From: Oegoconia quadripuncta
Taxonomy: Eukaryota; Arthropoda; Insecta; Lepidoptera; Autostichidae
NCBI GenBank assembly: GCA_949316235.1
Contig: OX438754.1
Location: forward strand, 4,449,501-4,513,500
Direction: 5' to 3'
Length of the DNA: 64,000 bases
Under the pieces are notes generated by a model. That model was not told the DNA's origin, made no database searches, and saw only the letters and a program-made list of their open reading frames with translations. Shown piece after piece: positions 1,701 through 53,156 of the stretch (positions within the stretch are counted from its first letter, which is position 1; each line of letters opens with the position of its first letter). The position numbers and the translations under genes were made by a program.

Positions 1701-1936
1701 GTCAACTGATAGAGCTCGTGAATGGAAAGACGTTCTACTACTATCGAGGGTACACCTATTACAAGAAGCAGAGTCTAAAGGACGCTACGCGTTGGGCCTG
1801 CACCAAGTCACGGGCTTGCTACGCGTACGTCCACCTGGATGACAAACTGAACATCATCAGCGTATCAAATAAACCGCATACTCATGACATGACAATCTTG
1901 CACAAAACATTCAATGGGAAATATGTTAAGATGTAA
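1701..1936 (+). CDS. mod(mdg4): FLYWCH zinc-finger cassette 2 (alternative 3' exon)
   Basis: A 78-residue terminal exon. The acceptor TTATTATCCAG ends at 1700. The exon begins at the second base of a codon; with a donor-supplied G the first residue is Gly. The FLYWCH finger spans about residues 3-62: aromatic core around 13-21, W32-x-C34, C40, and H60-T-H62, giving C-x5-C-x19-H-x-H. The tail ends G-K-Y-V-K-M. In Drosophila MOD(MDG4), such C-terminal fingers follow a shared BTB/POZ part and set isoform-specific chromatin or partner binding. That role is family knowledge, and which isoform this is remains unknown. An in-frame ATG upstream of the acceptor (1682) is intronic and is not taken as the start. 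Confidence 0.85.
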
Positions 1937-2224: not shown

Positions 2225-2400
2225 GAAAAAAAAATGTATTTCGCCACTTCGACACATATAGGTACAATAATTAACACTCAGATAAATGATGCAGCAGCGA
2301 TAGGGAAAAAAATCAGCTTTATGCTGAGCTTATTTATGTTATAAATAAATAATAATAAATATAATAAGTTACATAAAGATACTTGTCATGTATACTGGAT

Positions 2401-2916: not shown

Positions 2917-3065
2917 GCATAATAATAGTATCCTTGGACATACACACAGCGCCATCTACTTCCACACTAAAACCTGGCCGTATATTACTAGATGGTTTCA
3001 ATACTACACAAATACATTTTTTTTTGTAAATAAATTGAAATATCCGTAACTCGAGTATACGTGTT
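2917..3065 (-). repeat. tRNA-derived SINE-A, headless copy
   Basis: The family tail is recognisable by ACACACAGCGCCATCTA and ATTTTTTTTTGTAAATAAAT. This copy lacks the tRNA-like head seen in longer copies such as 33440-33767. It is read on the minus strand. Confidence 0.6.
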
Positions 3066-5075: not shown

Positions 5076-5305
5076 TAAACATATTCATGACGACCCGTGG
5101 GAAAGAGCGATTGGTGTACCACAACTTTACCTACTACAAACAAAGTCGGACCAGGAGCGGATTCAGGTGGGGATGCACCAAGAACAGGTGGCATAAGTGC
5201 AAGGCATATCTTCACTTAGCTGATGATATGACCATCGTTAGAGGCAATATGGAACACACACATGGGCCATTTGGTCCACCGACGCATACACGGGTGCATG
5301 AATAA
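5076..5305 (+). CDS. mod(mdg4): FLYWCH zinc-finger cassette 3
   Basis: A 76-residue cassette after the acceptor GTGATTTTGCAG (ending 5075). The finger has an aromatic core V-Y-H-N-F-T-Y-Y (14-21), W32-x-C34, C42 and H61-T-H63, i.e. C-x7-C-x18-H-x-H. The C-terminal tail is atypical: instead of the usual G-x-Y-hydrophobic-K it ends in a Pro/Thr/His-containing run (residues 64-76). The finger itself looks complete. An ATG at 5087 lies inside the exon and is not needed as a start. Confidence 0.83.
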
Positions 5306-7407
5306 GTAGGTACTGGCTGATTTTATTTCAGGAGGTATTTGGCTTGTTGCAAGTTAGAAGAAGGATTGTACGGCCATTCGATTCAGGTGATTGCGAGTAT
5401 TCGCAGCATTTAATTAACTTTGTGGCTTTATAGGTAACCATAATGGATGACTCGCCATTAGTAGCAATATTGTAGCGAGTTTAGATAAGTAATCAATCAA
5501 ATATGGCACTCATTTCGAAGACATTCCACAGCGTTGCGTGCGCAATCGACCTGATCTCTTCCCCAGGATCTGTATGGAACAATTCGCTCAGGTTTCACCT
5601 GTCATGGAAACGAACAAATCGTGCGTGCACGCGGCATATTGCAGCGGTGTGAAACTACCCTTAGATTAAATGAAGGAGATATTGGTGGCGATTAGGATGG
5701 CACACGGTTAAAACTAAATTTTGGTCAGTCTATCCCTTTTCGAACACACAAAAAGGGCCACATGGCATTTTAGTTCTGTCACTTGGGTGTTTTCAAAATA
5801 GCATCCATAAAGTTAGAGATCATGTGTAGACATGACAACTAAAAATGATTACAATGTGGTCATGATTTCTGAACGAAGTGATAGGACTAAAATTTCATGT
5901 TGTATTTTTGTTTACTTGTAGTTTGTCAGGGCAAAGGGTTACTGCGTTTGTCGTACGGATCGCTAACTCGTGACTGCGACGCGAATACCATGGCACGTGC
6001 CTTCTTGGCTGGGAAAAATGTAGATAATTAATAGTTTGTGAAAATGTAAAGTATAATGTCTAATAAACTTATAAAATTAATATTATTAAATGTTGTATAA
6101 AATGATGTTTAAATGTTTATTAATTAAATAATGTTGTTCTTGTGCGAGTTGGTTGCGGTAAATGTAACTTTTACGCTGTTTCTAGCTGAGCAGAGACGCA
6201 GCGGGTTCAGCGGGTTTACCTAATTTGGTTTACACGCGCTTTACCGGCCCGGCCAAAGTGCAGCACAATGTACGTTGACCATACATATTCAAAAAGGATT
6301 GATTAGTCTAAATTTAGTTTAACCGTGTGCTACGAATGGACGTCATTATAGCGACCAGTAGATAGAGGAATGTCGAATTAATTTCTAGTCACTTGTCTTT
6401 TTCAATGAATTTGCAAATTGCATTCTATTAAAAATGTACCTCTATTTATAGGAGCACTTTTATTTTTGTATTTAATGTGACATATAAATGATCTCAAAGT
6501 TATATATACGTAATTAAATAGAGCTTATGTAGTAATCACAATTCACCTAAAGATAATAAGTAATATCTTAGATTATAGAAATTTGACTTAATACTTTTAG
6601 CATTAGCGAATCCTCGGATAAGAAGTGACGTGCCTTAATAATGTCAACAAATATATTAAGTCTTATATTTGATTAGGTACTTATTTTACTTCAAATTTTT
6701 ATTTCAACCCTTACGAGTACATGTTTCACCTTCTTCCTTGTTCCGCCATCCTTTTCGATTCCATTCGGATATTGGAATTACATCCAAACCTTTATGATGT
6801 TATCTGAGGTGGATTGGTTCTCCTTCTGCCGGCCATTAGTTCGTTACATTTTTGCAATGTAGTTGGTACTTAATTCATCGATCGTTGAAGCTAAAAGTAT
6901 AAAGTATGCTTAGGATATAATTATTGAGTCGCTCTTGTTCCAACTGTGACTCAACTGGTCCAGAGCTTTATTGTTCTTTTGCCTTAATGTCAGTGTGATG
7001 TCTTTTCTAGTCAGTTATAAGTCAAATAATCGTAAATAAGACACTAGTTCTAGTCATTTATTCTAGTAAATGTAATCTATTAAAAGCAAAATTCTAGTAA
7101 AAGCAATGTTTATTAAGAAGCATATATTAGATATAGTTCGTTAAATGGAAAGGTATTTATAATTAGATGGCTTTAGTCGAAAACTAGATTTGGAAATATT
7201 CGCAGTCATTTTGTGTTACAAAACGTTCGATTAAAGCTGTCTAACTGTGATATTAGTAAAGTTATACAGTTGACCACGTGTCAAGCCAGTCTCCCAGAGA
7301 GGAGGCTATACCCCAACAGTGGGGACGTGTACGGCTGTTGATGATGAACACGGGTATAGTAAAGCGCCTCCGCTTGCACCGGTAGGGTTATCCGCGGGGC
7401 TATTGTG
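5306..7407. other. long spacer, no gene seen
   Basis: This is the first part of the largest cassette-free stretch of the array (5.3-11.4 kb). I see AT-rich sequence, degenerate repeats and a LINE-tail-like block near 7275-7350. No ORF with a recognisable domain occurs on either strand. Confidence 0.5.
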
Positions 7408-7529
7408 TAACTCCATCGTTATCGTCATCGATTATGTTCTGACGTGTGATTGGTTGGCGTATCGCTCGCTCGGCAACATGACGTTTTCTCATTGGACATC
7501 GTTTTCGATGACGACATCCATGAAGTTAT
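7408..7529. repeat. small MITE, copy 1 of 2
   Basis: Begins TAACTCCATCGTTATCGTCA and ends CGACATCCATGAAGTTA, an imperfect inverted repeat. A diverged copy lies at 31204-31331, just upstream of a cassette acceptor. Confidence 0.55.
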
Positions 7530-10356
7530 AGAATAACGCACCTGTTGTCGCTTGATGTGTGGTCAACTTTACAATAGGTAAAGTACCCATAATACTGGGC
7601 TGCCATGGAATTCTAGTCAATAATAATTAGTAATTAGTTTGTAAAACACTCGAGCACGATTAGTTGAAGTTTTATTAGTTCCAAAACCGTGGTGATTAAA
7701 ATATTCTTACCGAAAGAAATCAATAAAAAATCCGCCATTCCATAGAAGTATGATACGAACTCGAGCAAGCTATTTATGTAAGCGCTGTCTATGATTTTGG
7801 GATGTAGCTCATACAGAGTGTAAAGTTGAGATGGAGCCCGTAGGGTAGCTGCTAGAACCGTTATTGTATCTGTGGGAAAACATTCTCGGTAAACTAATCC
7901 TAACTTTTACAGTAGGTACCTACTTACAGAATTTGAAAAAATGTTCAGTCATAAAGGAAAATTACAACCTTCACGTAACATTTTGTTCGCGCCTTAAGTA
8001 CTCTAGATAGAGAACAAAACTAATGTAATACTAATACACTTTATTGCAAAATAGAAAAGAAACTACAGTTTCAGAAAAGTGGTAAAAAATAGAATGTACA
8101 ATTTGGCGACCTTATCACTAAAAGCGATCTCTTCCACGCAACCAAGTAATTAGAGGTCAAGTGAATTCACGATACTAGAAGTAGATTTGTAATTAAAATA
8201 GGTTACCTTCAATATCTTTATTGTACACGCACAAGTTACACAAACAATGAAAGCTTAAATCCTTTCTTCTATTGAGTATTAAATTTTATTTTAGAGTACG
8301 AATTATTCAAAATACATAATTCAAATTTCTTTTTATGTTCATTTTCTACATGAGTTTTTTCATATATACTCGTAAATTAGGTATAGGTAATTGTCATTCC
8401 CTATACCAAATCTATGAGAAATTTTATTAGAAAAAAATCACTAACAGAATCGCATGACTTAGGTGACATAACAGAATCAGGTGTGATTGAGGTCAAGTAC
8501 GAACCCGTCTTGCCTAAAAAAAAAATTACGCGAAAAGAAAGTTTGTGAAAATGGTCAAATTCCTCCAAAAATTTCTTAAAAACGTTTTCTCATAGTGACA
8601 ATAGTTATCTGGTTTATATCCACATCTCAGAATGTCTCAACGTTACACTCTGTATACTAGCTTTATTTGTTGTTGTAACCAATGTAAACATACATAACTA
8701 TAGATATATATGATCACAGATTAGAGAAGGTTGATAGGTATAACAAACCTCTCCCTTTGAACAGAGTATCGATCAGGCCAAGGGTTCTCCATAGCGACCG
8801 GCTCGAAGCGGTGCGAAAGCCTAGCTTATACGAGTAAGGGTATATATAGAGCCGTTAATGTATACCATTGCTAGATAGTAGGTCTGTTTTACTGAACCAG
8901 GAGTCCGGGATCTTATTTATTACTTAACAGAGTCTGTACCTAGTATTTACCTTCTAAGTTTTAAAGAAATTGAACAAGTGAAATGAAATAAAAATCATTT
9001 ATTCATGTAGGCAGTACAATATGCACTTATGAACGTCACTTGTTTTTTAAACTACCACTAGCTCGGAACGCGACCACTACTGAGAAGAGCTAGCGAGAAA
9101 CTCAGAGGGTTTGTCTCTTTTCAATCAGTCATTTACAATCTAGGAAGGTTACAACCTTTTTTATATATCGTGTAGAGGAGCCGTTTAATCCCATGGATTA
9201 CTATCATTAATGTAGTCCGAAATTTTGTAATATCCCTTTTTACATAATTTTTGTTTTATAATAAGTTTATGTTTATTAAGCGGAAGATTCTGTATATCCA
9301 TGGGAACCTTGTTGTAGAAGCGCACACATTGACCTCTGAATGACTTATCTCGGTATTATCGTAAACGCCTTATCTATTTCTAATAGAAAGAATTGTATTT
9401 GACAACACACAATAACAGCAACTAGAGTATTACCTATTGTATTCCGATGTGAAGAGTATAAGAGATGAATTGGTGTGTGGGTACCGGGCCTCTATCTATT
9501 ATTATAATGTACCCTGACTATTCGGGATACATACCGAAAACGTTGAACGACTTGTTCCGATCTGTGTACATGTTAAACATAACAAGCAATACATACAGTT
9601 TTTGTGTAATTATGATATAGGTAAGATAAGCTTTGTCGCACACACACGATAGAAAATTGTATGTAAGAATAGGTACAACGCGGAATTCGTCGTATTATAT
9701 CACCATCAGTCCGCACCTCACAGATCTTTAATGGCTAAGTTGCAATTTTGAAAGGTGTGATGCGCATGTGGTTTCCATTTAGGTACTTAATATGTATGTC
9801 TGCTTCCGCAACGCTTCGAGCTGGTTCTCCGCTACTGTGTCCTACAAGTTACTGGGACCACAATATTATTTATGTGTGCCGTTCATAGAAATGCATGATT
9901 AGTTTTATCGAATTCAGCATGAAATTCGATTTGGTTATGTGAAAAACCGTTAATTTGGATCCTACCTGCGGGACGATAATTATTGTTTGTTTTGTTGTAC
10001 CAAAAAAATGTTGTATGGAACCACTCACGCATTTCTGTAACACCGATCCCGCGTCTGCCGATCTGGAATATGCCTAATGAGCATCACAGGAAATAGCGTA
10101 CGCAGGCGCTCTCTACCTCCGCGCCATTTGCCTGGACTTGCATTTCGGCCTTAAGTACAGTCTAACAGATATAAACCTTTACAGGCCGGCATAATACAAA
10201 TAAAGTTTTCTTAGCACATCAGGAATACTTCGATAGTAGTATTAGTATATTGTTGAGCTAATTCTATCTTATTCCTTTTGCTGATGGTTATTCGAGCGTG
10301 GTTCAGTGTGCCCACCAACTATTTTCTTCGTTTTCGATGGAGACTATTTGGTGATA
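7530..10356. other. long spacer, no gene seen
   Basis: AT-rich, non-coding in all frames. A fragment at 8478-8522 matches the 3' end of SINE-B (GATTGAGGTCAAGTACGAAC). A block at about 9040-9370 resembles a LINE 3' region also seen near 34240. Nothing else recognised. Confidence 0.5.
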
Positions 10357-18666: not shown

Positions 18667-18911
18667 CACAGTTCATAAAGTCGGTCAAAGGAGCGACGTT
18701 GTTACTTCTGAATGGATACACTTTTAGTAGAAACTGCGCCGTCCGCAACGGCGGCAACAGGTACGCCTGCTCCAACATGCTCTCGAAGCTCTGCAAAGCG
18801 TACGTCCACGTATCAAGGAACAACTGCATAGTCAAAGGTTACACTTTCCACAATCATGACCCACCGAAGTATACTTTGACTACTAACGGGGAATATATCA
18901 AATGGATTTGA
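18667..18911 (+). CDS. mod(mdg4): FLYWCH zinc-finger cassette 8
   Basis: An 81-residue cassette. Two AGs are close together: TTTCGGTTGTAG (ends 18666) and CACAG (ends 18671). Only the first gives the phase used by every other cassette, so I chose it. Finger: L-L-L-L-N-G-Y-T-F core (12-20), Y33-A-C35, C43, H62-N-H64 (C-x7-C-x18-H-x-H). The tail reads G-E-Y-I-K-W-I. An AATAAA at about 18977 could serve as its poly(A) signal. The open frame continues far upstream of the acceptor (to 18591), but that part lacks cassette similarity. Confidence 0.84.
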
Positions 18912-19996: not shown

Positions 19997-20247
19997 AACC
20001 AATATTCATCACTCTATCAACGGGGAAGACTCTCCTGATGGTGGATGGTTATACGTTCTACAAGGACAACATTAACAGATGTTCAGGTGGCGTGAGATGG
20101 CGGTGTTCCTCGATGTGGAGGAAATGTCGAGCGTTTGTGATCATCACAGATGACAACAAAACGATATTGAGGATGGGCCTAGAACACAACGACCATCTAC
20201 GTCCTCGGTATAAACGTTTGAATTGTGGCACTTATATTAAAGTTTAA
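19997..20247 (+). CDS. mod(mdg4): FLYWCH zinc-finger cassette 9 (H-N-D-H variant)
   Basis: An 83-residue cassette after the acceptor TAAATTATAG (ends 19996); with a donor G the first residue is Glu. It starts P-I-F-I-T-L. Finger: V-D-G-Y-T-F-Y core (16-22), W35-R-C37, C44, then E63-H64-N-D-H67. The other complete cassettes have H-x-H here, so an extra residue separates the two histidines. The tail ends G-T-Y-I-K-V. Zinc binding may tolerate the wider spacing, as H-x2-H occurs in other folds, but it is exceptional within this array. An AATAAA lies at about 20688. Confidence 0.83.
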
Positions 20248-20998
20248 TATTTTCAATGTGCGTCAGTAGTTGTCGTTTAAAAATTTGCATTTTCAACCAC
20301 CTGCTATGATTACTATGAATTATGAATATGAAATATGAATTTTGACATATTATGGTACCATCAAGCTGATCTGATGATGGAGCCGGGATGTAGGGACTGG
20401 AACTTCCTGATGACAACTAGTCGAATTTGGGGTAGTTTGTTTCGTTGCCATGAGCAACATGATGACGAGGGACTGAAGATGGAGCCAGAAGATTGACACT
20501 CGAACTCCTTCATAGACATTGTGTTACTCGTCTTTGTACTAGAATACCTAATATGTGATAATCATGATGGAGTATTAAATGCTTGTTATTATTAATGTTA
20601 CAATTATTTTCTTTATCTATAAGTAGTGTACTTAACTGCGCAGAGGTATCGACTACTGCCATTTACGTTTGATTTCAATAAAAGAAATATTAATAATATT
20701 CATCAATTTTGTTATTTCTTCTTCGAGTCGATGGCGAAAATATTAATTTGAATTAAAATTTATTTTGTTACTAATGTTAATATTTTATTATATTAGTAAA
20801 TAAAAAGTACATTAATTACTTATTATTTTATTATCGTATTTGTCTTGACCGTCCATAATTCGTGAGATTAGCTTCTCCTATGCAGGTACATAGAAGAAGC
20901 TTTAATGAAGCTATACATTAGGTGTTTTAGTGGCATTAAAACTTGGGGGCGGAAGTGTTCCCGAGGCTTGTAGTTAATCGAGTTTTTATTATATACTA
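20248..20998. other. spacer, no gene seen
   Basis: AT-rich. A GATCTGATGATGGAGCCGGG motif near 20370 is related to segments near 36845, 52795 and 53790, probably a dispersed repeat. Confidence 0.4.
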
Positions 20999-22312
20999 CT
21001 CTGTGTAAAAAGTATCGGGAATATGTCAATAAAAAGACCCGCGTAAAAGAGGTCGTTCTAATTTTTTTACTGCATGTTGGTAGCACTGTACTGATTTAGC
21101 GCGCAAAATTTGAGCGGGATCTGTCATTTAATTTGTTTTAAACTACACTTTTTGTTGGTCATAGTTTTGAGTCCTCGGCGATTTTTACAATGGAAAATAT
21201 TGTTGAACAAAGAGTGTGCCTTAAATTTTGTGTTTCAAATGATATTTCATGTGGTGAATCACTAAAAATGTTGCGAAATACCTACGGCGAATCGTGTATA
21301 TCGAAAACAAGGGCTTATGAATGGTATAAGGCTTTTAAAGAAGGCCGAGAAGTAGTAGTAGACTTGCCTCGTTCTGGTAGACCTTCAACCGCTACGACCA
21401 AAGAAAACATCGACAGAATCAAGAAGCTAGTGCTCGAAAATCGACGTATGAGTCTGAGAGAGTTGGCTAGTGAGGTGAACATATCTTTTAAGTCCGTCCA
21501 CAACATTCTCATTGACATTTTAGGCATGAAACGCGTCGCCGCTCGACTAGTTCCAAAAGAGCTCAATTTTGTTCAAAAAGCGCAGCGAAAGCATGTCGCT
21601 GAAGACATGGTTTCCCGAGCTTCTACGGATCCGACCTTTATGAAACGTATAATAACTGGCGACGAGACATGGGTTTATGCGTACGACATGCAAACAAGCC
21701 AACAGTCTTCAGAATGGCGTCTCGAAAACGAGCCGAAACCCAAAAAACCGCGGCAAAGTCGCTCCAAAATCAAGGTGATGCTGACAGTTTTTTTTGACTA
21801 CCGTGGTGTGGTTCACTCCGAATTCCTTCCAGAGGGAGAAACAGTGAATAAAGAATATTATTTAGGCGTCATGAAGCGTTTGCGTGAGAGTATCCGCCGA
21901 AAACGTCCAGATTTGTGGCAACACAACTCATGGATGCTGCACCATGATAATGCACCATCACACACAGCCATTATAGTGAAAGAGTTTTTAGCGAAAAATT
22001 CAACAAAAGTTCTCGACCAAGCACCGTATTCACCTGATATGGCTCCGTCTGACTTTTTTTTATTTCCCAAGTTAAAATTACCACTTCGAGGAAAACGTTT
22101 TGAGTCGATAGAAGCCATAAAAGAAAATTCGCTGAATGAGCTAAAGGCCATACCGCAAATAGCCTATGAAAAATGTATGGAAGACTGGGTGAAGCGGTGG
22201 AGATGTTGTATTGCAAGCGATGGGGCCTACTTTGAAGGCGATAAAATAAATTTAAATGAATAATTTGTATTTTTTGTTTTATTGACAAATTCCCGATACT
22301 TAGTACACTGAA
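20999..22312 (+). mobile_element. mariner element, near-complete
   Basis: About 1.3 kb bounded by 36-bp imperfect inverted repeats at 20999-21034 and 22277-22312, both containing AAGTATCGGGAAT and TGTCAATAAAA. A TA dinucleotide precedes the left end; the right flank does not show a matching TA, so the target duplication is eroded or the boundary is off by a base or two. It contains one uninterrupted transposase ORF. It lies in a spacer between cassettes 9 and 10. Confidence 0.85.
21190..22263 (+). CDS. mariner transposase (DD34D), intact ORF
   Basis: A 357-residue cut-and-paste transposase acting on the inverted repeats of its own element. The N-terminal half carries helix-turn-helix motifs (about 20-55 and 88-112). 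The catalytic triad is complete: D158 in T-G-D-E-T-W, D253 in H-H-D-N-A-P-S-H, and D288 in A-P-S-D-F-F, with 34 residues between the last two, the mariner signature. The Y-S-P-D-M-A-P block just before D288 and an L-V-P-K-E-L linker (about 120-125) also fit the family. The length is slightly above the usual 345 or so. No stops or shifts, so it could encode active protein. The start ATG at 21190 follows the left inverted repeat by about 155 bp. Confidence 0.93.
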   Translation: MENIVEQRVCLKFCVSNDISCGESLKMLRNTYGESCISKTRAYEWYKAFKEGREVVVDLPRSGRPSTATTKENIDRIKKLVLENRRMSLRELASEVNISFKSVHNILIDILGMKRVAARLVPKELNFVQKAQRKHVAEDMVSRASTDPTFMKRIITGDETWVYAYDMQTSQQSSEWRLENEPKPKKPRQSRSKIKVMLTVFFDYRGVVHSEFLPEGETVNKEYYLGVMKRLRESIRRKRPDLWQHNSWMLHHDNAPSHTAIIVKEFLAKNSTKVLDQAPYSPDMAPSDFFLFPKLKLPLRGKRFESIEAIKENSLNELKAIPQIAYEKCMEDWVKRWRCCIASDGAYFEGDKINLNE

Positions 22313-22847
22313 TGTATGTCGTAGATGGGTGTGTGGGCGTTGCTAGCGACCGAGATGGTGCCAGTCGCGTGGTAAAGAGTGGCTCGGGCAGTGGCGACAT
22401 TATTGCAAGCTACTGTAGGCGAATAGACAACGTATTCACATTCGATTGTTGATCATGGAACCCGAAATGCTTACCGGTGAAAAGTAAACATATGCATGCC
22501 CCTCATGCCATACAACTTGGCCCTCGCGTGCAGTCTGTGGAATTCAGCCGGACCTAGTCTATAATTCCTCCTTGCTCAAATCCCATGATCAACTTCTTAT
22601 TAACTAACGACTCACCGGATTCTTCCAAGCGTCGGTGACTCCGACTCCGACTCCTTTGAAGGCTCGTAGCAAAGTCCCTATCAGTTTCGATGTGCAGACC
22701 TTATATTACTGTTACGTCGTCACCGCGCCGTTTCCGGCGATACCAGCGCCACCAAGGTTTACTTTCCATTAACCGCGTATTATAATAGTCAGTTGACCGT
22801 TCGAATAATGAATTCTATCGCTAATTTATCGCTATCTGCGACATATA
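22313..22847. other. CpG-richer spacer, nothing recognised
   Basis: Less AT-rich than the surroundings (e.g. GCTAGCGACCGAGATGGTGC, CACCGCGCCGTTTCCGGCGA). No ORF with a known domain. Origin unclear. Confidence 0.4.
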
Positions 22848-24489
22848 CAATGTGTCCCGGAGAGAAGTGACCAGCGGGCGTAGTTTGAAAATTTATACAA
22901 AATTATCGATAAATCATTTAAATTTAGAGACCTAACTGCTTTTGTTTTTTAAAAATTGTTAATCCTTTTTTTTTAATAGACATGTCTGACCTTCTGCACT
23001 ATTTTAGTCATAATTTCTTTGTTTTTACGTCTTTCCCAATTCTTTTTTTTTAAATTCAGTGCTGTTATTATTATTCATCAAATTAAGTTATGAAAATTAT
23101 CCCAAAACAAATAAATAATTTATTAAAAAAGAAATAAACTTAAAATTCGACCAACAAAACTGTATTTCTTTAAGTTTAAAAATAAAAAAACGAAAAATGT
23201 CCCTATAACATCATGTTTTTTTTTAATTATTATGATACTACATGATATTCTCTAAAATATCCTCGAACAATGTTTTTAGTTATTTCAAATAAATGTGAAC
23301 GTACGAGACATTGAAATTGACCTTTTATGCTCCAGTAACTAGATAGAGATAAGTTTAAAAAAATGAAAGTAATGTTTTAAGCAGTTTATTTGCACATTTA
23401 AGTGTTTTGTTATTACAATGAATCATTTTGATTTTAACATGATAGTTTAATAATAAATAAAAGATACTTAATTTGTTAAAATGGTTGTTTATTAAGAAAA
23501 ATCAGGTAATTAATTAATTATGTTTCGTTACGTGAATTCATCAATGAAAATTATCCAAGATGGATTGGCAGAGGCGGTCCAATAGCATGGCCCCCGAGGT
23601 CACCAGACTTGACGCCTCTTGATTATTATTTCTGGGGCTACATGAAGCAAAAAGTTTATGCTGTGCCAATAATTTCAAGAGACCAGCTGAAACAGAGAAT
23701 CGATGCTGCTGCCGCAGAAATAGCGCAGAATCATGCAGAAATAAGGCGAACTACACTAAGGATGTCATTTAGGGCCCTGGCCTGCATAACCGCTGACGGC
23801 GGTCATTTTGAAAACATAATTAATTAATTACCTGATTTTTCTTAATAAACAACCATTTTAACAAATTAAGTATCTTTTATTTATTATTAAACTATCATGT
23901 TAAAATCAAAATGATTCATTGTAATAACAAAACACTTAAATGTGCAAATAAACTGCTTAAAACTTTACTTTCATTTTTTTAAACTTATCTCTATCTAGTT
24001 ACTGGAGCATAAAAGGTCAATTTCAATGTCTCGTACGTTCACATTTATTTGAAATAACTAAAAACATTGTTCGAGGATATTTTAGAGAATATCATGTAGT
24101 ATCATAATAATTAAAAAAAAACATGATGTTATAGGGACATTTTTCGTTTTTTTATTTTTAAACTTAAAGAAATACAGTTTTGTTGGTCGAATTTTAAGTT
24201 TATTTCTTTTTTAATAAATTATTTATTTGTTTTGGGATAATTTTCATAACTTAATTTGATGAATAATAATAACAGCACTGAATTAAAAAAAAAAGAATTG
24301 GGAAAGACGTAAAAACAAAGAAATTATGACTAAAATAGTGCAGAAGGTCAGACATGTCTATTAAAAAAAAAGGATTAACAATTTTTAAAAAACAAAAGCA
24401 GTTAGGTCTCTAAATTTAAATGATTTATCGATAATTTTGTATAAATTTTCAAACTACGCCCGCTGGTCACTTCTCTCCGGGACACATTG
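22848..24489. mobile_element. Tc1/mariner-type element with 675-bp inverted arms
   Basis: The sequence beginning CAATGTGTCCCGGAGAGAAG at 22848 is mirrored by the end at 24489, and the flanking dinucleotides on both sides are TA (22846-22847, 24490-24491), as expected of a TA-targeting element. The left arm 22848-23522 and right arm 23815-24489 are equal in length and nearly identical as reverse complements, leaving a loop of about 290 bp. The loop encodes only the end of a transposase. It looks like an internally deleted, non-autonomous derivative. Confidence 0.85.
23534..23827 (+). pseudogene. transposase C-terminal remnant
   Basis: The frame from about 23534 reads P-R-W-I-G-R-G-G-P, W-P-P-R-S-P-D-L-T-P-L-D-Y and F-W-G-Y, the region around the last catalytic acid of IS630/Tc1/mariner-superfamily transposases. 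It continues to a stop at 23825-23827. The first two catalytic residues and the DNA-binding part are absent, so this cannot be functional. It lies in the loop between the inverted arms and identifies the parent family. Confidence 0.8.
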
Positions 24490-25732
24490 TATAATAAATT
24501 TTTTGGTCCCATTACTAAAACCCACTTCTAAGTTTTAGTTCCACTATAAACAATACCTAATGTATAAGCTTCATTAATCACCACACCTTGTATTTGTGGG
24601 CCTTTCCCAGTGTAACATTATTGGGTATATTCCAAAATGGCCACGCTGAGTTCGTACACTGATGTGTCAGTTCGTACACGACGCCAGTGAAAGGCCAGTC
24701 ACTGAGCTGATTCGCGTACTGGATTTGTGTAGCCTCCATCCAGAGCACATTACAGTCTCAGAATGTCTACTTGTTACATCGCTTCGAATAGTAAAATCTT
24801 ATGCATATTATGTTAAATTTACAAACTATTATGTGTAAACATCGCATCTATCAAATAATAGCATATGAAATAATGTAACAAGAAATTAGCTTAGCGATGG
24901 AAAGTGTACCCATTTGCTTTAAATAACAGTTAATCACTCAAACAAAAGAATAGGCGCTTAACCCTTAATTACTCGGGCGGGGTTCATTTGGATCCCAGTG
25001 CAGATTCAACATTATGTCATTCCTTGAATTTTGCAACTATCTTCTTTACGCGCCTAGTAGCTTTCTAAAACGCTCATTACTTCATAATTATCTTGCGTGC
25101 GTGTACCAGTTACGTTGTTGTTTGCGTCTGGGGTTCATACGGAGTGCGAGCACTTCCGTGACTTTTCCGGATGTGCGATTTTTGTTGGCCCATTGCAAAA
25201 TCATATGAAGCGAAGTAGGAAATTGAGAGACCTGAATCTTCTACGACACCCCCTTCATCAATTTCCAAAGGCGATGGTATATTTTGTCCAAGATCTATAG
25301 ACGTGATAATAAAATCACGATGCGCTAAATTTGTAATGACCATTTGAAAATGCTTTGTACTGATGGTCTACAAAAAAATTTTGCTTCTAAATTGTAACGT
25401 GTGACGTTAACTTATTGATAATTTTAAGTCCTATATATAGTCGCTACGTGTTGTTGATTTAACAGATTCCAAAATAAAAAAATCTAATAAAACTTGTAGT
25501 ACAAGTGGCTTCACTTTGATTTTGAAAATGGGGTCCGTAAGAACCCCACCGAGCATCTATGTGAGTTTTTAGGTGCGAATAATTTAAGGTTAACGTACCT
25601 GAATACACAGTATTAACAACAACCAGCCCAAATCGGGAGGTCAGAAACATCACAAACACAAGCGCTTATATAAATAGGAGTCCAAACATCGATGGCTAGA
25701 CAATATAACCAAATAACATTTTATGTCACCAG
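24490..25732. other. spacer, no gene seen
   Basis: Several overlapping short ORFs on both strands (25014-25659) have no recognisable motif. No gene supported. Confidence 0.45.
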
Positions 25733-25980
25733 GAAAAGATGAAAAGATAGTAGGTGGAATCTTTGCTGCTGAATCGGGTAAGAAAGTTCTAATCTTCAAA
25801 AATTACGTATATAACGAAGAGTGTGCCACAGCAGTTGCCAATGTCGTCAAGTGGAAGTGCGCCGATAGCGACTGTCCTGCTTACATTATGATAAAAGACT
25901 ACAATCAAATGATTACACAAAAAACTAAACATAACCATGGGCATGCGACCACGTTGAACTTCTACAATGTGTTAAAATAA
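25733..25980 (+). CDS. mod(mdg4): FLYWCH zinc-finger cassette 10, divergent
   Basis: An 82-residue cassette with a TTTTATGTCACCAG acceptor ending at 25732. The N-terminus is longer and more charged than in the other cassettes (G-K-D-E-K-I-V-G-G-I-F), pushing the finger down by about eight residues. Finger: L-I-F-K-N-Y-V-Y core (20-27), W41-K-C43, C48, H67-N-H69 (C-x4-C-x18-H-x-H). The tail lacks the usual G-x-Y ending and stops after N-V-L-K. Ligands are complete, so I consider it functional but an outlier. Confidence 0.8.
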
Positions 25981-27472
25981 TACTAAATATAATGTTAGTT
26001 TTAAGAGAGTTTATCCCGTCCAGTTGCGACATTGGATAAATAAGTAGAGTTATCGCTGACCTGCACTCGAGAAACCTAAAAGCAAATTTTAAGTAATACC
26101 TAAATACCTTTGAAGGGCGTTATTTTCCAGAATTCACAAATATGAAAAAAGTGGTCGTGTTTATCAATTTTAAATTCTCGAAAATATCCGTATATAAAGC
26201 TAATTAGGTATTATTTATAATAAGCTTTAAGCCTTTCGAGTGCAGATCAGAGCAGAGAGATATTTTAGATTTACGCTGTATTTAAAAATAAATCTTAATT
26301 TATGTAATGGGGGCGCCACTGGACGTATTAAGTACACTTAAGTTACAAAAGGGCAGGAATGGAGACGTGGGTAGAAAATAAAATTTAAAAAATGTTTCAA
26401 TCGACGTGACGTCGATGAACTTGTACAGTTAAGTACTAATGTTACAGGCTGTAAGCCACTGCTGAAATGTAGTATTTTTATTTTTATTTATTAAAGAAAC
26501 CAACAGCGTTACAGATGTGTATAAACTATTATAGTATACATTTTTCGTGTCTTTTTTTATTTTATTTTTTTGAAGTTTAAGCTACATACTTAGTTAAGAA
26601 CCACGTAATGGGTAATTTTAATAATAGAGTAGGATATATTGTTTACAAAAACTGTCGCTAATGAACTTATTTAAAAGAAGTTACGGGGCCCTTCTTTTTG
26701 TTATCTCTTTTTAGGGTTCAGTAGTCAACAAGGAACGCATAGTTTCACCGTGTCCGTCTGTCTGTCCGCCGTTTAGGTCAGAGGCTCTTAGTACTATAAA
26801 GCTGTAATTTAAGCACCCTTCTACGTCCGCATATTGTGACGTGCAATTTCGGAACCCTACACTGCACGTGGCCCTACACGCAATGGACCGGTTTTTTAGT
26901 ATGTTTTTATTAATATCTTTTATACTCCTCTACTGTAAAATAATATGAATAGTTTATCACCTACAGATACTTTTGAGATTTATTATGATCTTAGATTTAC
27001 TTGTTATGTAGGCAAAATTCATATATTTTGGCTGTACTATTTAACAAAGAGTAAATTCATTTATAATTTTAGTATTTATGTTTTTATTTCTAGGTGTTGT
27101 AATTTTTTCAATAATAAATAGTGGTTGACCTAATTTTGATTTAAATTAAATAATCCCATTAAAAAGCTTCAATTAACATAAAATACATCCATATGCTCAC
27201 GCCTGTTTCCCGTTGGGGTAGGCAGAAACTATGGATTTCCACTTACAACGATCTTGACATACTACTGTTCTACAACTCTCATCAAATGCTTCATACACGC
27301 TCGTCGGCTAGTGATTGACCGCACCTTGTAGAATTAACGTTGAATTAAGATGTTGATAATATTCAATTTTGGACACGTAACGAGCTGCCAAAGAGAGGTA
27401 TTGTTTTTAATATTGACCACAGATTCACATGTGATAGCTGAAGATAAAGTACCTCATCCCAGTAACCCTATA
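25981..27472. other. spacer with dispersed-repeat fragments
   Basis: At about 26710-26790 a GGGTTCAGTAGTCAACAAGG segment followed by TCTGTCTGTCCGCC resembles a common insect dispersed repeat, with a partial inverted copy near 33385. No gene seen. Confidence 0.45.
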
Positions 27473-27640
27473 CAGGGTGGATTTGAATTCGTGTAATTTC
27501 CATTAACTTATGACGCAGCTCTTGATTACGAACAACTTTGCCAAAGAGATCATAATGCCGAAATATTGGTCCGTTACAAACAGTAGTAGCCTGGCGTAAA
27601 GACAAGTGAGTCAAGCGAAGCAGTAATGATGTCGGTAGAT
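27473..27640. repeat. MITE, one-ended copy
   Basis: Begins with TA then CAGGGTGGATTTGAATTCGT and shares its first 80 or so bases with the complete MITE at 52216-52471. The opposite terminus is not recognisable. Confidence 0.6.
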
Positions 27641-27762
27641 CAGTTAACAACGCCATATATTGTTTTTTAAAGAACTTAGACTCGAGTGTTCATAGGATTG
27701 TAGACTTTAAGTTATCCATGCAATTAAGTGGTCGGGTGTACAATTGAATATTCAAATTATAG

Positions 27763-28025
27763 ATTTCAGAATACTGGTGGTTATGTCGAATGACGAACTG
27801 GACGCTGTCGATATGTCAAAAAAACACACGTTAACCAAGAAATATGTTAGGACAAAAGAAAAGAGAAGAAGGTGCCGACAATGCTACAAGGATAACGCTG
27901 CAATCATGGGTGCAAGATTGGCCCAAAGTAAAACACGAAGAGTTACCACTTGCTGCAAAATTTGCCCAAGCGAACCCTTTCTTTGTGTACCGTGTTTTAA
28001 TAAAACTCACTCATATTGTTATTAG
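27763..28025 (+). CDS. piggyBac-type cysteine-rich-domain cassette 11
   Basis: An 87-residue exon. The acceptor TTCAAATTATAG (ends 27762) gives exactly the array's splice phase; the later TTTCAG (27769) does not. No FLYWCH core is present. Instead there are basic residues (30-37) and a cross-brace: C38-x2-C41-x23-C65-x2-C68-x6-C75-x2-C78-x4-H83-x2-C86. This, with the F-L-C-V-P-C-F-N-K-T-H segment, resembles the C-terminal zinc domain that lets piggyBac transposases bind their terminal repeats. No DDD transposase domain lies upstream, so this is not a normal piggyBac gene end. I infer a captured DNA-binding cassette. An alternative is another RING/PHD-like finger of independent origin. Confidence 0.65.
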
Positions 28026-28664
28026 TTTATAGAATGAGGTCTTCTGATACAGGTATTACTATACTTACAAGGAGACCTCAACTACTCATTTATTTAAATT
28101 GATATTTTACTGAAAATAAATAATTTTGAATTTTTGAATTTTGAATAGAATGTCAATGGGAATGTAAAGGGTCAAATCCAAATAGGTTTTTAATTAAGTA
28201 AATTTGCTGTTGAATCAAAGTTTGTTTGTATCTATATCAAAAGTGTCATAAGTGGCCGACACACGTGTGCAAGTGTGGATAGCAATTTTTATCCGACCCA
28301 TAAGATTTTGCTGCTAATTGTTGTTATTTTGAGACACGATGCCACGCCAGGCGCCGAGACCCAAGCAACTTACACGATTGCCTGGCAGCCGCCCTCCATC
28401 TGCCAATACATATATATGTATTATAGTAATATAGCATGAATGTATACATATATATTCCAATTCTATGTACCTATAGGATACTTTCTTTGGCGATGTCTGA
28501 GGTGCTGTTGACACGTACTTGAGCGGTTGTTAAATTTGGACGTTGTGGGCACCATCCAAGCGTTACAATTATGTTTTTCATCATTAATACCATTCGAGAA
28601 AAGTGGTATATACAGACAGACGTATGTACACAGTGGATACTATAAAGGTTCTTTTGCTTTTAAG
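28026..28664. other. spacer between the two cross-brace cassettes
   Basis: A possible AATAAA (about 28116) follows cassette 11. No other feature is recognised in the rest. Confidence 0.4.
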
Positions 28665-28903
28665 GTTATGAACTTGCAGTCGACGAAAGACCAAAAAGGC
28701 TAGTACACACATTAGCCAAGAAAGCTGGTACGGCAAGAATAAACAGAAGAAACTGCCAACAATGTTATAGGGATAACGCCGTAATCATGGGCCCAAAAAT
28801 GGCCAAAAATAGGACACAAAAAGTTGTTACTTACTGCGAAGTTTGCCCAAAGAATCCCTTTCTTTGTATACCGTGTTTTAATAAAACTCACTCATCTCAC
28901 TGA
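28665..28903 (+). CDS. piggyBac-type cysteine-rich-domain cassette 12
   Basis: A 79-residue exon directly downstream of, and paralogous to, the previous cassette. The acceptor CTTTTGCTTTTAAG ends at 28664 in the shared phase, and there is no ATG near the 5' end, consistent with use only as a spliced 3' exon. Ligands: C31-x2-C34-x23-C58-x2-C61-x6-C68-x2-C71-x4-H76-x2-H79. Spacing is identical to cassette 11, with the last ligand His instead of Cys. Both share C-Y-x-D-N-A-x-I-M-G and P-F-L-C-x-P-C-F-N-K-T-H-S. The N-terminal 25 residues differ strongly. Conservation of every metal ligand alongside a diverged N-terminus argues for selection after duplication. Confidence 0.65.
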
Positions 28904-29094
28904 ATATTAAGACGTCACTTCATCGGTCCGCAGGGGTTTATTTTTTGGCTAATAATATCCTAGATATATTCTAATCCATTTCAAACTAACGCATCTATTT
29001 CTTATTCTTAACTGCAAGTAATAGGCGAAGCCCGGGCAAGACGAATATATAAAGGGAAAGGCTAAAAAGCACTAAAATTTCTAATCAACAAGTC

Positions 29095-29144
29095 TTTTTA
29101 TTATTAACTTGTACTTTAACTAAAATACAAGTTAATAATAAAAA
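29095..29144. repeat. perfect 19-bp stem hairpin
   Basis: TTTTTATTATTAACTTGTA (29095-29113) is mirrored by TACAAGTTAATAATAAAAA (29126-29144) across a 12-nt loop. It sits downstream of cassette 12 and may be the end of a small repeat. Confidence 0.7.
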
Positions 29145-29219
29145 ACATTGGAAAAATACTAGTAAAAACTTTGAAACTTTTTGTTTTTTTATGTGTTTTG
29201 CTGGGGCCTGCTAACTCAC

Positions 29220-29940
29220 CTATTCAAAAGACAAAGCGTCACTTAAACGGAAAACATCCATTGTCAACGGAGTATTAGTCATTGTACATGAGGCTCCATT
29301 TATACTATTGGGGACAACCATAGTTGACAGAGCATTATTAGTATTCGATGTTGCGACATTGACAGGGTGGTCAGACACTGTTGGCAAAGCAGCAGTAGTG
29401 TTAGATGATGCGTCATTTAAGGTTGGGTCAGTCATACTTGAAAGAGTAAAATCTTCATCTCCAAATACATTCGGATTATAAGGCCAAATTCCCGGTTTAT
29501 TATATCCATTTGTTGCATTCTGGACTGAAGCACTTTTGACGTAAGCTTCACCGAATAGTTTTGCCATGTCATACTGATTCACGATTCTGCCTGGGTGACT
29601 TTTTTGAAACGTGTTCAACTCTTGCTCAAAATAATTTTAACAGTCCATAAATGGTTACGTTTAGTGGTTGCATTCGGGCGGTGGTGTGTGGTGCGAATGA
29701 TAAAAATATGATGTTACTTTCTTAAGCAAACTCTAAAGCTGGATAAAGTTTGTGCGATTCATGGTTTATCAAGTAAGAGTAGCACTTTTCTGTTCTTACT
29801 TGGGTGAGCCCTTTCGGTAAAACATTGCAACCAGCTTCAAAAAGACTCCGTCGATCCAGCCGTAATCTGTGACGGTGGCTTGAGAGTCTGGCGGGGCACC
29901 ATCTAATAGTCTTTTTCGTTTGCATGCGAATATAAAAAAG
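29220..29940 (-). pseudogene. pogo/Tigger (jerky-like) transposase remnant
   Basis: On the minus strand, 29925 to about 29722 reads, with frame changes, W-L-Q-C-F-T and L-L-L-L-D, then N-H-E-S-H-K-L-Y-P, the neighbourhood of the second catalytic Asp of pogo/Tigger-type DDE transposases. After a frame-broken stretch, an open segment 29618-29220 continues with H-P-G-R-I-V-N-Q-Y-D, K-L-F-G-E-A-Y and G-I-W-P-Y-N-P, the conserved C-terminal motif of the same family. Several frameshifts and the missing N-terminal half make it non-functional. It is antisense to the cassette array. Confidence 0.8.
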
Positions 29941-31203
29941 GTGGTATAAATGTACCTGCTGTGTTATTAATATTAATCATATTAATACTTTTGAATTTAG
30001 TTAAGACATCGACAGCACACCTATCAATGCGGACTGCTTTTCCCATCTTATCAGCCTCCTCCTTGTACCGCAAACGTGTATACCATATGGAAACTGGAAA
30101 ATCTTTAAGATGACGTCAGCCATTAGTATATATCTGACTGACTCGTGACTCGTGTTGCAATGCACTTATACTATCTGACAAAATAACTAATTATTCCGTT
30201 AATTATTCAATCCATTAAGTGACCTTTCAAAATTTGGAAAACTGCACTAGTAGCATGATAGGCGCGATAAACTTTAATGTCGGGCGATATAATATTTGTC
30301 CTTCTCATTCGCTTGAACGAAATATATAACTATCCCACTCTTACTCCTACGTCGGGCGCGACAAACGATATCATGGTACGGGGGCTGGTATATTGGGCTA
30401 TATGCTACAAAACAATGCAATGTGAGCCTCCTCGTGTACCTTGGTTTATTAATGGTAATTTAAATAAAACTTATGTTGAGCTATTTCTAAGATTTAGCTC
30501 TGGACACATTCCATTAAGAAAATTTTCATTTAGTAAGATGAAATAAATTGAATAAATTCCTCTAATTGAGAGGTTTGTCGTAAAGTAGAAGATGTTTAAA
30601 ATTTAGTGATGGAGTATGTCAAGAATGAAACTGAAGAATGAAAATGAAAGACAGTCGGTGATGAGAAACTAGGATTGAATCGAGTAGATTTTGGATCAGG
30701 GCATATATATCAGCATTGAATTCAGATGCCGCTGTGATATCGATTAGTCCTGGCTTCCTTTCAGTGACTGGACTATCTTTATAATATTTTTAATGATATT
30801 TGTAATCTAGCGTAGGGGCGATGGGGTTGACATGTAAGAACATATAAGACGACTAAATAAAATAATAATTCAAAAATAATAATAATCATGACTAAACAAT
30901 AATTTATGACTTATATTATTGATTTCTTGAATAAAATTCAAATTAAACTACCACTTCTTTATATTCTATATTTTCGATATTTTTCTGACAAATCAGACTT
31001 TTTAAGCACCATAGATAGGCAGGCTTCCATTCATCTTGAAATCAAATTAGGTATCTCCAGTTATCTGTCTGAACGGTCCATAAAGTAGGGGCTCACTGTT
31101 GTCATCCAATGCCCAAGGAAATTGAAACAGTGATTTGTTTATGCCCTGTTCGAACAAAGTCACTCGGAGTCAATTGAACCTATCACATACCAGGGTTCTA
31201 TAT
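29941..31203. other. spacer holding a dispersed repeat
   Basis: Includes the second copy (30250-30385) of the repeat at 1264-1400. Remaining ORFs are short and motif-free. Confidence 0.45.
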
Positions 31204-31348: not shown

Positions 31349-31602
31349 GTCAACTGATCACTTTAACTAACGGCAGGAAGCGTATGCTCTACGACGACCA
31401 TGTGTTCTTCTTGCGCTACATTGTGCCAGCGAAAGGCAATAAGTACTGTTGCACCAGATTCCCCAGGTGTAAGGCCCATTTATTCGTCGACGACGGTTTA
31501 CGAGTAGTCCATAATTTTGCAGACCACAACCATCCGAGATACGGTTTAATAAAGACCGAAGATGGCACATACATCAAGTGCAAATGGTTCCACAAATCCT
31601 AG
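31349..31602 (+). CDS. mod(mdg4): FLYWCH zinc-finger cassette 13
   Basis: An 84-residue cassette after a strong acceptor TATTTTTCTGTTCCAG (ends 31348). It starts G-Q-L-I-T-L-T-N-G, very like cassette 2. Finger: M-L-Y-D-D-H-V-F-F core (13-21), Y33-C-C35, C41, H60-N-H62 (C-x5-C-x18-H-x-H). The tail is longer than usual: after G-T-Y-I-K-C it continues K-W-F-H-K-S. The F-P-R-C-K-A segment is shared with cassettes 15 and 19. An AATAAA at about 31661 is a plausible poly(A) signal. Confidence 0.86.
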
Positions 31603-39381: not shown

Positions 39382-39548
39382 AAATTTAGCGATCTAATGC
39401 TATCTAGCCTGTCTCGAAATTACTGAAATTGCGATGCTGTCAACCCCTTATTAGCAGTAGTTTGAGGGTTCTAGGTGCGCGTTTCGTTTTCATCTTCATC
39501 TGATATCAGGTATCCTAATAAAAATAACCATGGCACTTTCACTTTCAG

Positions 39549-39787
39549 CTCGATTCATTACAATGACAACCGGCAAGAGGTGCCTACTATACGAAGGCTT
39601 CACTTTCTTCCATCGCTACAAAGTGAAGATTGGCCATAAGTACGTGTGCACCAACTTCCCACGATGTAAGTCGTGGCTCTACATGAACGATATGCACGAA
39701 ATATTCCACTCTGTGATCAACCATAATCATTTATTAAGAAATTTATACCAATGTACAGACGGTAGATATGTTAAAAGATGTTTTTGA
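39549..39787 (+). CDS. mod(mdg4): FLYWCH zinc-finger cassette 15
   Basis: A 79-residue cassette after the acceptor GCACTTTCACTTTCAG (ends 39548). It starts A-R-F-I-T-M-T-T-G. Finger: L-L-Y-E-G-F-T-F-F core (13-21), Y32-V-C34, C40, H59-N-H61 (C-x5-C-x18-H-x-H), with F-P-R-C-K just after the first Cys as in cassette 13. The tail reads G-R-Y-V-K then R-C-F. The ATG at 39530 is intronic and sits over the polypyrimidine tract. Confidence 0.86.
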
Positions 39788-45712: not shown

Positions 45713-45951
45713 TGCGACTTGTTGGAATGATGAATGGAAAGTCACGTCTGCTCTACAATGATTACACTTTCTTCAAGTTAAACAAGTCTAAAACAGGTAA
45801 CAAAGGGAAATGGGCTTGCACGTCCTATCCAAAATGCAAGGCACATCTGTTCATTGACGACAGCTTCACAATTATAAGAAGCTTTATCCAACATAATCAC
45901 AAGCCTATCAAGTTAATGCAATTACAATGTGGAAGGTATATTAATGTGTAG
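45713..45951 (+). CDS. mod(mdg4): FLYWCH zinc-finger cassette 19
   Basis: A 79-residue cassette after the acceptor TAACACTTGTTTTAG (ends 45712); first residue Val with a donor G. It starts V-R-L-V-G-M-M-N-G. Finger: L-L-Y-N-D-Y-T-F-F core (13-21), W34-A-C36, C42, H61-N-H63 (C-x5-C-x18-H-x-H). The Y-P-K-C-K-A-H-L-F segment links it to cassettes 13 and 15. The tail ends G-R-Y-I-N-V. Confidence 0.86.
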
Positions 45952-47843: not shown

Positions 47844-48100
47844 ATAATAATAATAATAAAAATATCCATGACATACACACAGCGCCATCTAGTTCCACAG
47901 TAAGCAACTATAGGCTTGTGTTGTGGGTGTATGTGTATGTACTACATAAATACATTGTTTTTTGTAAATAAATACTTATTATAAATGAAAACATCCATAA
48001 CTCGTGTACACATGTCCGTATTCATCACACAACCATATGCCCCTAGCGGGATTCGTGTCAGTGGTCAGAGTTGCTAACCACTACACCGAACAGGTCGTCC
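47844..48100 (-). mobile_element. tRNA-derived SINE-A
   Basis: Body marker ACACAGCGCCATCTAGTTCC and a partial tRNA-like head at the high-coordinate end (TGCTAACCACTACACCGAAC, the complement of the A-box region). It lies 66 bp upstream of the cassette 20 exon and part of it is read in frame with that exon. Confidence 0.7.
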
Positions 48101-48166
48101 TTTCTGAATCCTTTCTGTTTTATACAAGACTAAGTTTGTCTTCTAAACATGATTACTCTTTTTCAG

Positions 48167-48393
48167 CTATATTGACAGTTAATGATAAAGGGAAACAGCG
48201 GGCGTTGTACCAAGGATTCTTGTACTACAAAAAGAACAATTGCCGTCGAAGGTGGGATTGCCTATCTTACCCGTCATGTAGAGCCTTCATAAAAGTTGAT
48301 AACGAATACAATCTAAATGTAATGTATAGTTCAAATAACCATACGCATGCTAAAAGGTCCTATAAGTTTCTGGATGGTTATTCTCAATATTAA
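48167..48393 (+). CDS. mod(mdg4): FLYWCH zinc-finger cassette 20
   Basis: A 75-residue cassette after the acceptor TTACTCTTTTTCAG (ends 48166). It starts A-I-L-T-V-N-D-K-G. Finger: A-L-Y-Q-G-F-L-Y-Y core (13-21), W30-D-C32, C38, H59-T-H61 (C-x5-C-x20-H-x-H). The linker between the core and the first Cys is shorter than in cassettes 2-19, as also in 22 and 23. The tail ends G-Y-S-Q-Y. An apparent start 163 bp upstream is SINE-derived and not real. Confidence 0.83.
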
Positions 48394-49378: not shown

Positions 49379-49460
49379 TAGAAATATACTTAAATTAAAC
49401 TTTTGTAGATAGCAGTTGTTCTTTTATTATCTGTTACTACATCAGTTTTCTTTTTCACAG

Positions 49461-49704
49461 CACAATTAATTTCAATGGTGCAAGGTTCTACATTACTAAA
49501 GTACAGAATCATTTGTACGCAAACAAAAAGACACATTGCGGTTCTTTGTGGCGGTGTCATAAGGCAAATAGTTGTTACGTTACTTTACGTGTAAATACAG
49601 ATATGGTTGTAGTGAAGCATCCGAAAGAGCACAACCATCCTCCTAGATCAGTTATCCAGCTGCGCAATGGGAAATATATTTTTATGAAAAAAAGTCCAAA
49701 TTAA
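49461..49704 (+). pseudogene. FLYWCH cassette 21, broken by a one-base frameshift
   Basis: A good acceptor TTCTTTTTCACAG ends at 49460 in the array phase. The first part reads A-Q-L-I-S-M-V-Q-G-S and L-L-K-Y, matching cassette 22 (A-K-F-I-E-M-I-Q-G-S ... L-L-M-Y). Between about 49501 and 49512 one base is missing relative to cassette 22. From 49513 the correct frame resumes with L-W-R-C, C-Y-V-T-L-R-V and E-H-N-H-P-P-R-S, ending G-K-Y-I-F and a stop at 49704. Total length is 1 mod 3, unlike the intact cassettes. Spliced as is, the product would stop inside the finger, near 49590. The ligand codons are still intact, so the lesion looks recent, or it may be an assembly error. Confidence 0.82.
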
Positions 49705-52899: not shown

Positions 52900-53156
52900 A
52901 AGAGGAAGTTCATGAAATAATTACAGTACAAGGGAAGAAGTACGTAATGTATCGTGGGTATACGTACCACAGGATGAGGAAGAATCGTTGGCGGTGTACC
53001 AGCGGCTGCAAAGCGTTTTTGATTAGATCAGATTGTGGCACGAAGGTGGTTCGGGCTGTCCACGAGCACAAACATCCGATGCCCATATATCACGTCACTC
53101 CACAAGGGAAATATTTGAAGCTTCACCGTAAAAAAAATCTTGTTTTAGGAACGTGA
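52900..53156 (+). CDS. mod(mdg4): FLYWCH zinc-finger cassette 23 (last seen)
   Basis: An 85-residue cassette after a strong acceptor with a T-run, TTTTTTCTGCTAACAG (ends 52899); first residue Glu with a donor G. The N-terminus is acidic (E-E-E-V-H-E-I-I-T-V). Finger: V-M-Y-R-G-Y-T-Y core (16-23), W31-R-C33, C37, H57-K-H59 (C-x3-C-x19-H-x-H), the tightest Cys spacing in the array. After G-K-Y-L-K-L there is an extension of basic then hydrophobic residues to L-G-T. An AATAAAATA lies at about 53256. No further cassette was found downstream in this window. Confidence 0.84.

Follow-up and report, generated by a model that had tools for sequence, protein, structure and literature searches.

Within a window of 64,000 nucleotides (the whole stretch of DNA analysed, C13:4449501-4513500 of a 622.6-Mb assembly), two open reading frames, here called exon A and exon B, each encode a cysteine-rich domain (CRD) of the piggyBac type. 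This raises the question whether they are coding exons of a host gene or leftovers of transposons. The preliminary description of this DNA had taken them for two alternative exons in an array, and both CRD-only frames could be confirmed in the window (Table 1). In our reading, which we regard as probable, they belong, as alternative 3' terminal exons, to a mod(mdg4)-type locus with predicted trans-splicing, and are two of at least eight CRD-only exons which were captured several times from different piggyBac lineages.

The common exons of this locus occupy C13:6132641-6133773 (minus strand). They encode a BTB domain (Pfam), which spans two exons, and a linker ending in a phase-1 donor (ATGACTG/GTAAGC). 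In a genome-wide search for FLYWCH domains the best 150 of 606 candidates were scored, and 148 of these 150 matches lie at C13:4.419-6.114 Mb; of the other two, one is on C7 and one at C13:12.83 Mb, where a second BTB gene lies next to it. The array spans about 1.7 Mb, which is 0.3% of the genome, and contains FLYWCH acceptors on both strands. The locus is assigned to the mod(mdg4) type by its N-terminal BTB common exons, its many alternative 3' exons, most of which encode FLYWCH domains, and its acceptors of donor phase on two strands. Judged by the donor protein and the FLYWCH array, the insect is likely a moth or butterfly. Since exons A and B (plus strand) and the donor (minus strand) have opposite orientations, only trans-splicing could join them.

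Table 1. Predicted acceptor exons and related reading frames, with positions counted from the first nucleotide of the window.
Feature	Position	Strand	Basis
FLYWCH acceptor exon	1701..1936	+	PF04500 E 1.9e-8; donor phase
FLYWCH acceptor exon	5076..5305	+	PF04500 E 3.3e-10; donor phase
FLYWCH acceptor exon	18667..18911	+	PF04500 E 7.6e-8; donor phase
Exon A, predicted 3' terminal acceptor exon with HC6H piggyBac-type CRD	27763..28025	+	ORF, stop 28023-28025
Exon B, predicted 3' terminal acceptor exon with HC6H piggyBac-type CRD	28665..28903	+	ORF, stop 28901-28903
FLYWCH-like acceptor exon	31349..31602	+	recognised by eye, without Pfam match; strong in-phase acceptor
FLYWCH-like acceptor exon	39510..39787	+	PF04500 E 9.5e-4, under cut-off; donor phase; second in-phase acceptor 39549
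FLYWCH acceptor exon	45713..45951	+	PF04500 E 1.9e-8; donor phase
FLYWCH-like ORF	48001..48393	+	PF04500 E 8.3e-4, under cut-off; top AG out of phase
FLYWCH-like ORF	49399..49704	+	recognised by eye, without Pfam match; top AG out of phase
FLYWCH-like acceptor exon	52900..53156	+	PF04500 E 0.015, under cut-off; strong in-phase acceptor

Some further elements were noticed in and around the array. The window contains a mariner-type transposase with an open 373-aa ORF (21142-22263, Transposase_1 E 4.7e-18). A Polinton/Maverick-like element inside the array covers window positions 57797-64000 and positions 1-8099 of locus L022; it was recognised by an integrase and an A32-like ATPase (Pfam) and, by eye, a polymerase-like ORF of 1,184 aa. 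The second BTB gene (C13:12.834-12.841 Mb) also has a phase-1 donor; in the same orientation there follow a CRD ORF of the zf-Tnp_2 type, with an in-phase acceptor, and a FLYWCH ORF (loci L024 and L030). This is a small paralogous locus, in which CRD and FLYWCH termini may be used alike.

Exons A and B are 80% identical across 192 bp in a pairwise alignment, which agrees with the duplication proposed for them earlier. The genome search with exon B returned exon A with E 1.9e-21, and the 150-bp flanks of the two exons align no better than shuffled sequence. Exon B is also similar to the C-termini of the piggyBac copies L011 and L012 (E 6e-22, 55% identity), therefore its kinship to piggyBac is not due to chance. 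Neither exon matches the Pfam family zf-Tnp_2, and the link to piggyBac is one of pairwise homology to transposases. A tblastn search of window positions 20000-31000 with six transposase pieces found the CRD end only and no transposase core. Both the absence of a transposase domain upstream and the capture of a piggyBac C-terminal domain without its transposase, as they were put forward in the preliminary description, are in line with these results. Pfam matches to Tmpp129, B-box and ZZ were all far under the cut-off, so that these identities were rejected for A and B, and a PDB match to a cytochrome trimer was judged to be due to chance. No homologue was found in two protein searches, the first of which excluded long isoforms by its length limits.

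Both exons had also been assigned the splice phase of the array. In-frame acceptors matching the BTB donor are indeed present in front of both, that of exon A being weak. According to acceptor scoring, the in-phase AG of exon A at 27761-27762 is surpassed by an out-of-phase AG before 27770, which scores best. The in-phase acceptor of exon B (cttttaag/, at 28663-28664) is an AAG of moderate strength and overlaps an in-frame TAA. An AATAAA hexamer is located 90 nt 3' of the stop codon of exon A.

The genome was searched for CRDs with three queries, exon B, the CRD of the L013 transposase and Pfam zf-Tnp_2, which matched at least 10 (exon B itself included), at least 14 and at least 29 places, respectively. 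All CRD counts are lower bounds, because the searches score the best candidates only. L011-L014 are piggyBac copies with the CRD as C-terminus, and their kinship is indicated by a match to the DDE_Tnp_1_7 protein L036; L013 is a single open frame of 548 aa, and L011, L012 and L014 are each broken into two frames. Exons A and B turned out not to be the only CRD exons of the array: at least six further solo CRD loci are found there, which gives at least eight (exons A and B, L015, L016, L017, L033, L034 and L035). Two CRD loci of the array carry a transposase (L036 and L037, with ORFs of 542 and 603 aa). Outside the array the relation is reversed, with three solo CRDs (L018, which is a copy of L017, L039 and L024) versus at least 22 loci with a transposase. 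The enrichment of solo CRDs in the array corresponds to a Fisher p of 2.6e-4 for 22 outside transposase loci and of 1.3e-4 for 25. The number 22 is composed of eight loci from the search with the L013 CRD, six long ORFs from the searches with zf-Tnp_2 and L036, six fetched controls, and C16:565214 and C17:14975132, both from the L036 search; the number 25 includes in addition the inferred loci C9:6090352, C11:21191110 and C6:27638477. Four zf-Tnp_2 matches of 1,008-1,501 aa under the Pfam cut-off were left out of the solo and transposase counts. The two queries foreign to the array, the L013 CRD and zf-Tnp_2, between them recover all eight solo loci. L033, L034 and L035 are above the Pfam cut-off for zf-Tnp_2; L015 is not, and matches L013 with E 3.8e-21. 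A binomial test on 11 solo loci spread at random over the genome was set aside, because one of the queries is derived from the array.

Three of these loci deserve a separate description. L039 (C15:18234988), one of the solo CRDs outside the array, is an ORF of 244 aa, and transposase remains were not found within about 1.9 kb of it. L036 (C13:4955653-4957281, minus strand, in the array) is a piggyBac transposase ORF of 542 aa, in which the first Met occurs at residue 124 or later; its nearest relative in the genome is 37% identical (among 81 scored of 196 candidates). Its acceptor is very strong (score 8.65) and has the phase of the array, and the region of the third catalytic aspartate is changed. 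Going by these features, L036 is possibly an acceptor exon for a whole transposase. L017 (C13:5.441 Mb) shares a segment of about 1.5 kb, which includes a CRD exon, with L018 (C11:18.4208 Mb) at 90-97% identity (39 bp at 100%). This near-copy indicates that CRD segments are also able to move without the array.

Could the CRD frames be decaying 3' piggyBac ends, which lie in a transposon-rich array by chance and are not used as exons? We consider this unlikely. The transposase ORFs L036 and L037 do sit in the array, and the window does hold other transposons. However, no transposase core was found near the eight solo CRDs of the array (upstream stretches from about 1.7 kb at L033 to 7.7 kb in the window), whereas transposase remains are present in six of the seven short-ORF controls outside the array. 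Moreover, the enrichment described above is confined to 0.3% of the genome, which also argues against chance decay.

Splice phase and strand point in the same direction. When acceptors were scored from the start of the frame to the domain, the top-scoring acceptor was in array phase for seven of the eight array CRDs (chance 1/3 each, p 0.0026), the exception being exon A, whose weak acceptor rather fits a decaying end. All eight lie on the same strand as their FLYWCH neighbours. The FLYWCH or FLYWCH-like ORFs have the top acceptor in phase in 11 of 16 cases, the other five being unsettled. Among the controls, two of the seven fetched outside loci are in phase (L043 and L044, one family). Of the full transposons L011 and L012 (one family) are in phase and L013 is not; L018 is out of phase and L024 in phase. 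Counted by family, an in-phase top AG occurs in two of seven transposon or outside families, which is near the chance rate. The phase test is not clean, since the transposon copies L011, L012, L043 and L044 are also in phase, which counts in favour of decaying ends. Seven of the eight array CRDs have a poly(A) signal in the next 400 nt, and L034 has none in the next 600 nt; this is weak evidence, as the density of such hexamers is 3.3 per kb here.

The preliminary description had assumed that A and B are kept by selection. Their dN/dS is 0.87 for the CRD and 0.89 for the whole exon, so that purifying selection is not shown by this pair, and values near 0.9 are what the decay of transposon ends would predict. 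In a neutral simulation at the divergence of A and B, all eight ligands and the reading frame were kept in both copies in 0.01% to 0.6% of the runs, an argument that is biased in favour of the exons, because they were noticed for their intact ligands. Together these values suggest that the metal scaffold is fixed and that surface residues are free to change. A clearer case is the solo locus L033 (C13:4694251-4694717, minus strand, beside a FLYWCH exon), in which one ORF of 157 aa contains two tandem CRDs. With dS 0.77 and dN 0.126 between these two CRDs (dN/dS 0.16, p 1.6e-6 in Fisher's test), the double CRD is under purifying selection, which speaks against decay. L017 and L018 differ by too few changes for a dN/dS estimate, and in one FLYWCH pair the synonymous sites were saturated.

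The origin of the array CRDs was addressed with a tree of 21 rows and 74 columns, some of its branches being long. The near-copies L012, L014, L041 and L044 as well as the unfetched long-ORF matches to zf-Tnp_2 are left out of it. Array CRDs group with transposons in several places: L034 with L037/L042 (100/99), L015 with L013 (99/97), L033 with L043 (90/86) and L017 with L029 (88/85). Exons A and B stand beside L011, L013 and L015 (87/77). In an earlier tree of ten rows L013 and L015 paired as well, with weak support (58). Because the array CRDs branch among different resident piggyBac lineages, capture was likely recurrent, and at least four separate captures are likely the simplest reading of the tree. 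A single ancient capture, which founded every array CRD and was followed by duplication inside the array as for the FLYWCH exons, would be simpler, and A and B are clear duplicates of each other. We nevertheless hold it to be quite improbable, because the array CRDs are nested in different transposon lineages (supports 85 to 100), and a single clade of all nine array CRDs, which lowers the log-likelihood by 157, was rejected, on 74 columns only.

If the CRD frames are acceptor exons, they should be readable from the BTB donor. The in silico junctions of the donor with exon A and exon B are stop-free and encode 343 and 335 aa, respectively. The ORFs of L017 and L035 lack a Met codon altogether, as does exon B up to its CRD, therefore translation would require an upstream exon. 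That the CRD ORFs are small independent genes, with promoters and starts of their own and no link to the BTB donor, is very improbable on account of these missing Met codons, the donor-compatible phase and the stop-free junctions, even though exon A has an in-frame ATG 5' of its CRD.

The ligand pattern of the domain needs a correction. The spacing C-x2-C-x23-C-x2-C-x6-C-x2-C-x4-H is the same in A and B, as noted earlier. The additional C or H after the last H, which had been counted as eighth ligand, is missing in the transposases L011 and L013 and could not be upheld. The full motif starts with a His (H-x15-) that precedes the first Cys pair and is present in all eight CRDs aligned first and in 20 of the 21 CRDs of the tree set. 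By this conservation the upstream His is likely the eighth zinc ligand, in an order of the PiggyMac type. An AlphaFold model of exon B, made from the window sequences, was poor (pLDDT 55).

The label of a DNA-binding domain cannot be taken for granted, because the ligand order is that of PiggyMac, PLE-wu and PGBD2-4, and the PiggyMac CRD binds H3 tails. According to the available text of PMC8086355, the PiggyMac CRD (pI 5.48) binds to H3 tails in vitro and not to DNA, the CRD of the T. ni piggyBac is a DNA binder, and PgmL CRDs of widely different pI all bind H3; its authors warn that the CRD structure does not predict the substrate. The pI is 9.7-10.1 for the five array CRDs computed (exons A and B, L015-L017) and 9.2-10.1 across all eight CRDs computed. 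Such basic values lean towards a nucleic acid as partner, with the PgmL CRDs as a caution against taking this as proof.

We infer from these features that the CRD exons would be spliced and expressed, that their domains would bind zinc and a target, and that they would function in the following way. The phase-1 donor would be supplied by the common BTB exons on the minus strand (C13:6.13 Mb), whereas the zinc domain and the stop codon would come from whichever acceptor exon of the array is joined to it. Exons A and B, being on the opposite strand, would have to be trans-spliced to the donor. This would yield a BTB protein, which forms multimers via its BTB domain and is targeted by its swappable tail. 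A CRD tail could recognise either histone tails or DNA, in the latter case perhaps the termini of the piggyBac lineage from which it came.

In Drosophila Su(Hw) is bound by the C-terminal end of Mod(mdg4)-67.2. The FLYWCH domain of this isoform helps in recruitment, yet a protein lacking it still rescues the mutant (PMC5666082). Three Drosophila isoforms, N, V and AF, act as repressors of the retrotransposon HeT-A, and variant-specific chromatin sites are reported for N and T (PMC9723646). As specificity is set by the C-terminal part of Mod(mdg4) in Drosophila, a CRD terminus would be a targeting device, and the repression of HeT-A turns the use of transposon-derived termini against transposons into a concrete hypothesis. 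A more specific version, which we regard as tentative and rather doubtful, is an arms race, in which mod(mdg4) would keep capturing the CRDs of invading piggyBac elements, so that BTB-CRD isoforms could attach to the termini of elements of the lineage of origin, whose copies would then be silenced or insulated. The pairs would then be A and B with the L011 lineage, L015 with L013, L033 with L043, and L034 with L037/L042.

The available text of the mostly open-access literature found (PMC4667647, PMC10027918, PMC4033408, PMC5666082, PMC9723646) contains no description of a piggyBac-derived terminus at a locus of the mod(mdg4) type, and the earlier suggestion that this class of non-FLYWCH terminus is new for such loci agrees with that. 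The best reading is that the locus type is known, and that the piggyBac-derived CRD is a new class of swappable mod(mdg4) C-terminus. If true, it would show a route by which a trans-splicing array gains protein domains. A transposon end that inserts there and carries a splice acceptor of matching phase would immediately give an extra isoform and leave the existing ones unharmed. It would further provide a testable tie between resident transposon families and host isoforms bearing their domain, and could explain the nature of some non-FLYWCH termini at such loci.

With the mod(mdg4) loci of Diptera and Lepidoptera the present locus shares the BTB common exons, many FLYWCH acceptors, the use of two strands, a remote donor and the occurrence of some non-FLYWCH isoforms (PMC4667647). 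In Danaus plexippus at least 40 isoforms with 24 acceptor genes are reported over 550 kb and on both strands, and 37 of 40 isoforms contain FLYWCH; a distance between donor and acceptor of 0.95-1.28 Mb is given, apparently for Aedes (PMC4667647). At least 148 FLYWCH matches here (best 150 of 606 scored) exceed the 9 to 41 acceptor combinations of six insects in the same source. The locus differs further by an array of about 1.7 Mb and by at least eight acceptor-like exons with piggyBac CRDs. In the available text of PMC4667647 the non-FLYWCH termini are not identified as transposase domains.

As a piggyBac CRD (PF13842, zf-Tnp_2) the domain has its homologues in the C-termini of transposases of the same genome, and the His upstream of the seven Cys/His is shared with PiggyMac, PLE-wu, PiggyBat and PGBD2-4 (PMC8086355). 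In contrast to these, the CRDs described here occur without a DDE core, in a BTB locus, and once doubled in a single ORF. The pI of the PiggyMac CRD, 5.48 (PMC8086355), differs from the 9.7-10.1 of five array CRDs.

Host-transposase fusions have a host regulatory domain spliced to a transposase-derived domain, as is predicted here. Such fusion genes are reportedly the subject of the work of Cosby et al. from 2021 on 'transposase capture'. Here, however, capture seems to be repeated at one locus, and the array could add a terminus with the old ones being kept. A parallel within the locus is offered by the FLYWCH termini of Mod(mdg4) themselves, as FLYWCH is said to derive from a Mutator transposase, and a transposon-derived zinc domain would thus serve as isoform-specific terminus in both cases (PMC10027918). 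The CRDs come from another transposon superfamily, and several of their lineages have resident transposase-bearing relatives here.
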